Below are positions 25,327-28,161 of a stretch of 55,389 nucleotides of DNA, piece after piece. Positions within the stretch are counted from its first letter, which is position 1. Each line of letters starts with the position of its first letter. Origin of the DNA: Acholeplasma sp. (GTDB taxonomy: Bacteria > Bacillota_I > Bacilli_A > Acholeplasmatales > Acholeplasmataceae); the NCBI GenBank assembly GCA_003605085.1, contig QZKD01000015.1, positions 1-55,389 of the forward strand, given 5' to 3'. Under the pieces are notes generated by a model, which did not search any database, had not been told where the DNA came from, and saw nothing but the letters and a program-made list of their open reading frames with translations. The translations under genes and the position numbers were made by a program.

Positions 25327-25347
25327 AAAAAGTGATGGGGGTACATC

Positions 25348-26805
25348 ATGAAACGGCGAATTGCGATTGCAGGATCACTGACCATCTTAATCTTCATTTT
25401 AATGCCGCTTGCCTTAATCCTTTTAAACTTAAGAGGGCAAGGCATTTTTATGATTTCTGCGATCGTTACTTTAGTCTTCGTAGGTATTTACCTTTTTGGT
25501 GGTGTTCCCAAATTAATCGTGGCAGTGATTTATGGAATGCTTACATTCATGTTCTTATTTTTCTTGGATGAAGCCTATCATTTACCATTCTTGATCGTTG
25601 GGACACTCATCTTCGTTTTAAATCCTTTATCGACTTTTGAAACCTATCTCACTTCCAAGATGAATGATGAAGATGTCTTACCGATTCGCTTTTCGCTTAG
25701 GGGTTCTTACTGGCCTTTTTTTAACTATCAAAAAGAAATGAAGAATTTCTATCACCTCCCTCAAGCAAGAAAACTTTATACCAAAAAATGGTATTTGCAC
25801 ACCAGACAAATCACGACACTTTCCTTAATCACGATGGGGATTTTCTTATTTTTGCTCGGTTTAAGCAATATTGCCAATACACTCGATAACTTTTCATGGT
25901 TTAATTTCTTCGTGTTCTATAATGTCATCATCATCTTTCTTTTGGCGTTTATGCTCTTTAAGAAAGGATTTACATCGACCTTTAGAACCTTCGTCATCAG
26001 TTTATTTCTCCCTGTCATCTATCTGATTTTTCGCTCCGATTTTCCAGATCCCTTGAAATATACGCTCGCAGCTTCGATGTTTTTTATCGGACTTGTCGTC
26101 TCGACCGTTGAACTCATCAAATTTTACCAAAGAGTTGCTTATGATAGTTATCATTACTATGACCCTGATTTACAAATGGAAGTGTTCGCCAATGCTCTGT
26201 TTGAACCTTTAGTCTATAATGAAACCTTCATCCTTTCTGGCCATTATCAAATCAAAGTCAAACCAGAAGTTTTTCAAAAAGTGCTTCATGACATTTTAGT
26301 TTATGCAAATCTGTTTAAAATAATCATCACTGCGTATACATTTAGTAAAGATACCGTGCATATTTATGCGGATTTTCATGAAAAAGATCATAAACGTGCG
26401 GAAAAGTTTAAAACCTTTTTAGAAGCCAAATTCAAAATGGGTATTAAGGCAGACATGTATGAAGATCCCAATAAAGAAGTCTATGAGAAGATGTTTTTCC
26501 ATCGACCAGAATACATCATTACCCGTGCCCAATCACTTGCAGGATTGCTCAAAGAATTAGAAATCAAAACCAGGATCATTATCAGCTTGATTATCTATTT
26601 TGAACTTGAAGAAGAACTCGAAGAATTTTCTAATGAATTTCCTGTTTCACGTTTAGAGGATTTGAGTGAAGAGGATTATTTAACGGTGCGTGTCGATCTT
26701 CCTTCGATCAATGTCGATTATATGATCGAAGCGAAAATCAGAGAAGTTCTCTTAGGCTTACTGATGCATCATGGAAAGTTCGTTCGTATCTCTGTCTATT
26801 ATTAA
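25348..26805 (+). CDS. Multi-pass membrane protein with large cytoplasmic C-terminal domain, unknown
   Basis: The 485-residue protein has about eight hydrophobic helices in its first 255 residues (two pairs near the N-terminus, then a soluble loop of about 45 residues, then four more). A charged domain of about 230 residues follows, with segments such as KTFLEAKFKMGIKADMYEDP and a glutamate-rich ELEEELEEF. I see no catalytic motif and do not recognise the family. GGGGG is 6 bases before the ATG. It is a single gene bounded by terminators on both sides. Confidence 0.75.
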   Translation: MKRRIAIAGSLTILIFILMPLALILLNLRGQGIFMISAIVTLVFVGIYLFGGVPKLIVAVIYGMLTFMFLFFLDEAYHLPFLIVGTLIFVLNPLSTFETYLTSKMNDEDVLPIRFSLRGSYWPFFNYQKEMKNFYHLPQARKLYTKKWYLHTRQITTLSLITMGIFLFLLGLSNIANTLDNFSWFNFFVFYNVIIIFLLAFMLFKKGFTSTFRTFVISLFLPVIYLIFRSDFPDPLKYTLAASMFFIGLVVSTVELIKFYQRVAYDSYHYYDPDLQMEVFANALFEPLVYNETFILSGHYQIKVKPEVFQKVLHDILVYANLFKIIITAYTFSKDTVHIYADFHEKDHKRAEKFKTFLEAKFKMGIKADMYEDPNKEVYEKMFFHRPEYIITRAQSLAGLLKELEIKTRIIISLIIYFELEEELEEFSNEFPVSRLEDLSEEDYLTVRVDLPSINVDYMIEAKIREVLLGLLMHHGKFVRISVYY

Positions 26806-26821
26806 TCATTCCAAAGGAATG

Positions 26822-26860
26822 AAGCGCTCATGGATTTTCCATGATAGCGCTTTCTTTTTT
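26822..26860 (+). terminator. Terminator after the 485-residue membrane protein gene
   Basis: AAGCGCT-CATGGA pairs with TCCATG-AT-AGCGCTT (13 bp with a two-base bulge) and is followed by TCTTTTTT. Confidence 0.85.
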
Positions 26861-26873
26861 AGTCGTAATTTTC

Positions 26874-26902
26874 TTGACAAGAATGCTAAGAAGTGATAAA
26901 GT
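26874..26902 (+). promoter_or_regulatory. Promoter of the structured RNA gene
   Basis: TTGACA (26874-26879), 17-base spacer, TAAAGT (26897-26902), with TGA just before the -10. No open reading frame with a ribosome site follows on this strand before the terminator at 27056, so it drives a non-coding RNA. Confidence 0.8.
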
Positions 26903-26908
26903 GAAAGT

Positions 26909-27056
26909 GAACCTAGGAAGCAGCCGTGGAACCCAAAATAGTAGTAAGAGGTGTCAAACAGTGTGGGTGTGAACCTTTTTGGAAATTCCCGAAGCATTGA
27001 CCAGTCGACGCCAGTGTTGAACATAACTCGTTCTCACAGCTTTCTAGGCTTTTTTT
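26909..27056 (+). ncRNA. Free-standing structured RNA with 6S-like architecture
   Basis: About 148 bases between its own promoter and a seven-T tail. The ends pair (CCTAGGAAGC 26912-26921 with GCTTTCTAGG 27039-27048), followed by a second helix (GTG-GAAC 26926-26932 with GTTC-T-CAC 27030-27037). Then comes a symmetric open bubble of 17 bases on each side (26933-26949 and 27013-27029), then an apical arm (GGTGTC 26950-26955 with GACGCC 27007-27012; AGTGT-GGG with CCC-GAA-GCATT; a small end hairpin). A long hairpin with one large central bubble is the shape of 6S RNA, which traps RNA polymerase. Identity as 6S is inference from shape; I see no SRP, tmRNA or RNase P signature. Confidence 0.65.
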
Positions 27057-27064
27057 ATGCCAAA

Positions 27065-27077
27065 ATTATGTTATAAT
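27065..27077 (+). promoter_or_regulatory. Extended -10 promoter of the second M42 peptidase
   Basis: ATTATGTTATAAT contains TGTTATAAT and is identical over 13 bases to the ruvA promoter element at 10613-10625. It begins 9 bases after the T-run of the RNA gene. Confidence 0.7.
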
Positions 27078-27102: not shown

Positions 27103-28161
27103 ATGAAAAAAGAGTATGAATTATTAAAAGCACTTTCTGAGCTTCCAGGCATCCCTGCCAATGAGAAAGCGGTCAGTCGTTTTATCGCTGAAGAGATCAA
27201 TCATCACGCCAATCAGGTGATCTATGATAACTTAGGATCCGTGATTGGGATTAAAGGACAAAAGGGTCCTCGTATTATGATTGCAGGTCATATGGATGAA
27301 GTAGGACTGATGGTTACCCAAATTACTAAAGAGGGATTTGTTAAATTTCAAACCATCGGTGGCTGGTTTTCACAGGTGATGCTCGCGCAAGAATGGGAGA
27401 TCCACACTGCAAAAGGGATAGTGTATGCAGTGACTGGCGTTAAGCCACCGCATATCATTCCTCAAGATAAACGCAATGTCGCTATCGACATATCCACGAT
27501 GTATTTAGACTTAGGCGTTTCATCAAAGATAGAAGCTGAAAAACTCGGTGTAGAACCTGGGAACATGGTGGTTCCTCACACCTCATTTCGCGTTTTGGGC
27601 AATCCAAAGTATTTACTTGGTAAAGCTTGGGATAACCGTATCGGCAGTGCCGTGGTCATTGAAGTCTTAAAGCGTCTAAAAGACCATCCCAATCAACTTT
27701 TTGGAACATTTACCGTCCAAGAAGAAGTGGGTTTACGCGGTGCGAAAACGAGCAGTTTTATCGTAGAACCCGAGATTGCACTCGCGATTGATACGGGACT
27801 TGCCAATGATGTTCCAGGTGGAGAAGCTGAGGAACAATCCTTAGGTAAAGGACCTCAAATTCTTTTATATGATGCAGGACTCGTTCCCAATCAAGCATTG
27901 CGTCAATTCGTGATCGAGATTGCAAAAAAAGAAAATATTCCTTATCAGGAAGCCTTTATCACAGGTGGACGGACCGATGCAGGTCATATGCACTTAGCCC
28001 ATGGTGGCGCTGCTTCCCTTTCGATAGGTATCCCTACACGCTACATGCATTCGCACACTTCCATTATCCATTATGATGATTACGAAAATACCATAAAATT
28101 AGTGCTCGCCGTCATTAAAGCACTCGATCAAGAAAAGGTCAATCATTTACTCACGAATTAA
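27103..28161 (+). CDS. M42 family aminopeptidase, second copy
   Basis: A 352-residue paralogue of the protein at 14574, with AGHMDEVGLMVTQI (near residue 64), AWDNRIGSAVVIEVL (near residue 179), VQEEVGLRGAKTS (near residue 211), ALAIDTG and RYMHSHTSIIH. It is a co-catalytic metal aminopeptidase of the cytosol. I choose ATG 27103 because AAGGGG is 9 bases upstream; ATG 27097 would be only 3 bases from it. It stands alone between the RNA gene and a terminator. The SxHT ending resembles the Bacillus YsdC/YhfE group more than the first copy does. Confidence 0.94.
   Translation: MKKEYELLKALSELPGIPANEKAVSRFIAEEINHHANQVIYDNLGSVIGIKGQKGPRIMIAGHMDEVGLMVTQITKEGFVKFQTIGGWFSQVMLAQEWEIHTAKGIVYAVTGVKPPHIIPQDKRNVAIDISTMYLDLGVSSKIEAEKLGVEPGNMVVPHTSFRVLGNPKYLLGKAWDNRIGSAVVIEVLKRLKDHPNQLFGTFTVQEEVGLRGAKTSSFIVEPEIALAIDTGLANDVPGGEAEEQSLGKGPQILLYDAGLVPNQALRQFVIEIAKKENIPYQEAFITGGRTDAGHMHLAHGGAASLSIGIPTRYMHSHTSIIHYDDYENTIKLVLAVIKALDQEKVNHLLTN

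Follow-up and report, generated by a model that had tools for sequence, protein, structure and literature searches.

A probable stand-alone gene for a short and divergent 6S RNA in an Acholeplasma genome

6S RNA has been described as present in nearly all bacteria (PMC8414754), and its length is given as about 200 nt (PMC8876501). For 6S-1 of Bacillus subtilis, product-RNA synthesis is reported to begin in the 5′ bubble, at nt 40, and to unwind helix P2; for the 6S RNA of Escherichia coli, the same source describes a freed strand that makes a 3′-bubble hairpin (PMC8876501). Streptococci are said to have a second product-RNA start on the 3′ side, and the conserved mark reported for lactic acid bacteria is a GG that occupies product positions 4/5 or 5/6 (PMC8414754). 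Here, we analyzed a window (the whole stretch of DNA examined, 55,389 nt, from Acholeplasma sp., contig QZKD01000015.1), which very probably carries a free-standing gene for a compact and diverged 6S RNA at positions 26909–27056 of the forward strand, the strand of all features given below. The RNA has the closing stem, the central bubble with CC on its 5′ side, and the apical arm with the core GGUGUGAAxGCC...GGAAUCC(C)GAA in common with the Bacilli-type 6S RNA (SsrS; Rfam model RF00013). It is 148 nt long as read, with the 5′ end placed from the promoter and the 3′ end from the T run, which is short for a 6S RNA, although a length of about 200 nt is usual rather than defining. The RNA lies beyond the reach of the current Rfam 6S model, and its proposed function is that of the 6S family. 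By description, it is also like Ms1 RNA of Actinobacteria, which is polymerase-binding and structurally related to 6S RNA, but Ms1 binds core polymerase and comes from another phylum (PMC9130861).

The locus sits between a gene at 25342–26805 and an M42 aminopeptidase gene at 27103–28161. The former is without a Pfam match and encodes a protein of 487 aa, whose first half appears hydrophobic by eye. These neighbors differ from rarA and uspA, which are reported next to 6S RNA genes of lactic acid bacteria (PMC8414754). A sigma-70-type promoter at 26874–26902 consists of TTGACA (26874–26879), a 17-base spacer, and an extended −10 element, TG-A-TAAAGT (−10 at 26897–26902). The original prediction had named this promoter, TTGACA-N17-TAAAGT with extended −10, and it is not only present but fixed: across 46 loci of the same order, such a promoter lies 2–5 bases before the model match in every case, with 8–11 of the 12 consensus letters, a spacer of 17 (43 loci) or 18 (three loci), and TG in 41. 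When the upstream DNA was shuffled (200 rounds), a site of at least eight letters fell at the promoter place in a mean of 2.0 and a maximum of 5 of the 46 loci. At the other end, the predicted stem and T run were borne out by the DNA letters CTTTTTTT at 27049–27056, which follow the closing helix as the U run CUUUUUUU, a probable terminator. TTTT occurs near the RNA end in 39 of the 46 loci, and a simple terminator scan of this sequence found none. At the level of sequence, the RNA gene thus has a promoter and an end of its own.

The RNA lies 46 bases before the M42 peptidase gene (27103–28161), and in L028 an M42-like gene, judged by protein likeness, occupies the same place downstream, as would be expected if the element were a structured leader or an antisense element controlling that gene. 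We consider this extremely improbable. In L027 (family f3), the RNA precedes what we take to be an rsmD-like gene instead of M42, and since the downstream gene differs in this way, the RNA stands as an independent gene. Its own promoter and terminal U run also speak against a leader, as does a TATAAT box that follows the RNA at 27072–27077. This box, directly past the U run and at the same position in many relatives, probably serves the M42 gene as its own promoter and overlaps the RNA end.

We found the anatomy derived by hand folding in the original prediction (a closing helix, a bulged second helix, a 17/17 bubble, and an apical arm) to be right, and its pairs covary. The RNA is a rod with a closing stem, a large central bubble, and a bulged apical stem. 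In an alignment of the 46 loci (A5), the closing helix P1 (26912–26921 with 27039–27048) was paired in 97.6% of cells, with double changes in 6 of 10 pairs, and helix P2 (GUGGAAC, 26926–26932, with GUUC-U-CAC, 27030–27037, U27034 bulged) in 96.9%, with double changes in 3 of 7. The two sides of the central bubble, each of 17 nt, lie at 26933–26949 and 27013–27029. In the apical arm, all six pairs of P3 (26950–26955 with 27007–27012) and all six of P4 (26959–26964 with 26994–26999) showed double changes, with 72.8% and 97.1% of cells paired, respectively; P3 is the weakest helix, we think because of register shifts. The apical core, GGGUGUGAA...AAUUCCC (26965–26990), matches the 6S core GGUGUGAAxGCC...GGAAUCC.

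Single-sequence folding of the window RNA was not significant (z = −1.15; 27 of 200 shuffles as good). The minimum-energy fold (−38.8) keeps the closing helix and the apical arm, with a 3′-bubble hairpin replacing the second helix, whereas the comparative structure evaluates to −36.4; with both outer helices forced, the value is −37.9 and the inner arm differs. The weak energy z and a promoter scan of this one sequence, which gave one promoter-like site against 1.3 expected and is therefore at chance level, are what one would see if the element were a chance hairpin between two genes. That explanation has next to no probability, because it is refuted by covariation, and conservation and the fixed promoter also speak against it. 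By DNA similarity, 31 of the 61 genomes searched, the own genome included, had a match, as did 18 of the 19 other genomes of the same genus; one of the 31, a 24-base match in G047, lies away from the RNA locus that our model R2 (below) finds there. In 26 own-family sequences (A2), aligned with MAFFT without structure and tested against the hand structure of 36 pairs, 89.4% of cells were paired and 16 of the 36 pairs showed double changes, with none of 500 shuffles as high. The corresponding values for A5, which was aligned to R2 and hence leans towards the tested structure, were 90.7% of cells paired and 26 of 36 pairs, with 210 cells carrying double changes and again 0 of 500 shuffles as high. 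When the partners in A5 were slid by 1–3 columns, pairing fell to 27–49%. The compensatory changes that the original prediction had asked for in relatives were thus found. The observation is real, and it is conservation, not single-sequence statistics, that decides it.

The sets behind these values were defined as follows. L022, which is cut by a contig, was excluded from A1, A2, and A5; A5 further excludes twelve repeat-place loci (L032–L034, L037–L040, L042, L043, L052, L056, and L057), L031 (SRP), and L061 (outside the order), and L132 and L133 are in no model. The model match spans 148–163 bases in the 46 loci. RNAalifold on the wider alignment A1 gave 11 pairs only, and the order-level sequences there looked misaligned; model R1, built from this 11-pair consensus, was dropped because the underlying set was poorly aligned.

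The original prediction had also proposed running the Rfam 6S model on 26909–27056, and this check came out negative: RF00013 reported no match in the window or in its own genome, either at the gathering score (46.4 bits) or at E up to 10. The RNA therefore falls short of the RF00013 threshold, which is a property of one model, not of the molecule. Among 296 genomes of the class, RF00013 matched in 114, and in none of the 40 genomes of the window's order within this sample (order members were counted from the rows of the R2 scan, and both class scans used stricter filters). Rfam matches to CRISPR-DR65, ST7-AS2_1, and snoR118 (E 2.5–9.5) were dismissed as chance. Likewise, SRP RNA was rejected: the letters GGAAGCAGCC (26916–26925) resemble what we take to be the SRP core, but the SRP RNA of this genome lies elsewhere (G000:C14:4952–5046). 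We class the window RNA as 6S on the strength of its homology, without counting it as a match to RF00013.

Homology to accepted 6S RNAs was found in both directions, and it supports, together with covariation, the 6S assignment that the original prediction had offered. In the forward direction, model R2, for which only 26 own-family sequences were used, matched 34 of the 296 class genomes: 29 of the 40 that belong to the order and 5 of the 256 that do not. In each of these five genomes (G308, G229, G244, G123, and G228), the R2 match falls within the RF00013 match and has the same orientation; the RF00013 match reaches the gathering score in three and stays below it in G229 and G244. Common to the bridging alignments are GAACC.AA on the 5′ strand, CCAC, and the apical core GGUGUGAAxGCC...GGAAUCCCGAA; the closing stem is covered in part or poorly in all five. 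R2 reaches 5 of the 114 RF00013 genomes, and when eight other RF00013 loci were searched directly it gave no convincing 6S match; one of the eight, L062, nevertheless had a weak match (9.7 bits, E 0.67) that coincides with a further 6S copy of G103. In this direction, the link to the RF00013 loci is thin.

In the reverse direction, we used a 6S-only model, R3, whose 11 source loci are RF00013 matches of family f19 that all exceed the gathering score (alignment A4: the 12 f19 loci less L125, which has an insertion); two of its source genomes, G308 and G123, are R2 matches too. On the 55-kb window, R3 matched 26907–27054 end to end (24.0 bits, E 1.5e-4), the second-best match there reaching 7.6 bits (E 2.3). 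Of 30 loci searched, 26 yielded the RNA (18.0–59.1 bits), and two further matches had E 0.4–0.5; R3 missed L002, L005, L006, and the contig-truncated L022. When the genomes of 40 relatives were scanned, 27 had an R3 match with E no higher than 1 and 25 had one with E ≤0.02, of which 22 were at RNA places already known and three were new (G037, G038, and G041). The scan found nothing in 13 of the 40, including the window's own genome (G000) and eight others known to carry the RNA. Its first look scores only some candidates and dropped G001, yet a direct R3 search of the G001 locus gave 43.7 bits; since direct searches find the RNA in both G000 and G001, the first look of the genome scan loses members. 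Compared with the f19 6S RNAs, the window RNA lacks the internal loop that parts the closing helix from P2 (in the R3 alignment, 11 and 10 bases).

These results bear on a further explanation, namely that an unrelated small RNA of this order, with another function, has converged on a 6S-like rod. It would account for RF00013 not reaching the window RNA, for the shorter length, and for the few accepted 6S loci reached by R2. However, shape alone would not yield a shared sequence core in register, all five out-of-order R2 matches fell on 6S loci, and a model made of 6S RNAs only finds the RNA in reverse. We therefore regard convergence as very unlikely and read the RNA as a probable 6S RNA in what follows.

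The original prediction placed the product-RNA start in the 3′ bubble (27013–27029), which is probably the wrong strand, as B. subtilis 6S-1 uses the 5′ bubble; the second start reported for streptococci leaves that placement some probability. Because the 6S-1 product starts there, the likely template in the window RNA is GUGGAACCCAAA (26926–26937), the P2 5′ strand and the next bases. The 5′ bubble contains CC, which would give GG in the product. GAACCC is present in 44 of the 46 loci, the exceptions (L059 and L060) carrying GAGCTCAAA, and GTGGAACCCAAA is present in 33. The GG mark reported for lactic acid bacteria at product positions 4/5 or 5/6 (PMC8414754) fits the CCC in these 44 loci; since the CCC of GAACCC would be its equivalent, the start is predicted at about 26937–26939, as placed by alignment to RF00013 loci. 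The template letters vary among families: CCGAAC is invariant in f19 (11 loci; L120–L131), in contrast to CCCAAA in the window and in most f1 loci, and five f5 loci (L049, L051, L053, L055, and L058) have CCCAAC. The series CCGAAC, CCCAAC, and CCCAAA may represent a stepwise change at the predicted product-RNA start itself.

By analogy with the 6S family, the RNA would accumulate as growth slows, and its bubble would imitate a melted promoter and hold the RNA polymerase that carries the primary sigma factor. Once nucleotides become available again, the enzyme would copy the 5′ bubble and the P2 5′ strand into a product RNA of about 5′-(A)UUUUGGGUUCCACGG. This synthesis would open P2 and free its 3′ strand, which could then fold with the 3′ bubble in most sequences (in the window RNA, GAAC at 27019–27022 can pair with GUUC at 27030–27033 once P2 is open), and the polymerase would be released. 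With the 5′ strand blocked, a 3′-bubble hairpin of at least four pairs formed in 33 of the 46 loci and one of fewer pairs in 13; in 40, a fold with P1 and P2 forced lay no more than 3 kcal/mol above the minimum. Given these counts and a minimum-energy fold of the window RNA without P2, a P2-release switch is plausible, not universal. By description, the likeness to B. subtilis 6S-1 lies in a P2 that adjoins the bubble and is opened by product-RNA synthesis, and in a possible 3′-bubble hairpin; the hairpin of the window RNA, in contrast, would use P2's own 3′ strand, which is nearer to the release scheme described for E. coli (PMC8876501). A broader reading, which we offer tentatively and with some doubt, is that the order has its own 6S sub-class, a minimal RNA of about 150 nt with a new conserved template GUGGAACCCAAA (product UUUGGG or A/G-UUUGGG) and a release switch made of the freed P2 strand and the 3′ bubble, which the small-genome genus g7 lost.

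We investigated the distribution of the RNA with a pattern scan of named genomes, which gave 45 stretches, 39 of them confirmed by R2. The other six (L079, L082, L098, L100, L108, and L115) were not confirmed and bear unrelated organism labels. The labels of the confirmed stretches were Acholeplasma, Acholeplasmataceae, or Acholeplasmatales (24), Tenericutes, Mollicutes, or Mycoplasmatota (six), Peloplasma (one; L106, on a contig of Peloplasma aerotolerans), and Anaeroplasmataceae (one); the remaining seven were Bacillota, Bacillales, Erysipelotrichaceae, or unnamed bacteria. Within the same family, the five genomes of genus g7 (0.7–0.9 Mb) gave no match with R2 or RF00013. The scope of Mollicutes in the original prediction thus narrows to the window's order (29 of 40 genomes by R2), less these five. 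In the accessible parts of the open-access literature on 6S RNA with Acholeplasma, Mollicutes, or phytoplasma, we found no report of this RNA, and by term count "non-coding RNA" and "ncRNA" are absent from PMC5138195. The RNA would fill a 6S gap in an order of wall-less bacteria where RF00013 sees none (40 genomes sampled), and the outcome is a search model that works and a 6S RNA that is compact by nature. It also becomes possible to test if polymerase is still parked in wall-less bacteria whose genomes are reduced.

Two observations concern possible regulation. At 26842–26855, 18 bases before the −35 element, the letters TGATAGCGCTTTCT form a cre-like box by what we take to be the consensus of the catabolite (cre) box; by eye, it lies within a hairpin ending the upstream gene, which the simple scan did not detect. 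Such a box occurs at −54 to −67 in 12 of the 46 loci and anywhere in up to 120 upstream bases in 15, and the window contains 27 cre-like matches, so the box is only a lead. In lactic acid bacteria, cre sites are reported before the 6S promoter (PMC8414754), and Acholeplasmatales are described as possessing CcpA (PMC5138195). Sigma-70 region 2 was found in four frames of the window's genome (C2:45288–45500, C6:53217–53417, C9:22820–23011, and C40:10404–10589), one a sigma-70-like frame of 430 aa and three of 169–178 aa. The 430-aa frame is consistent with the 6S reading. The four may comprise one primary sigma factor and three alternative ones, whose balance a 6S RNA could then shift.
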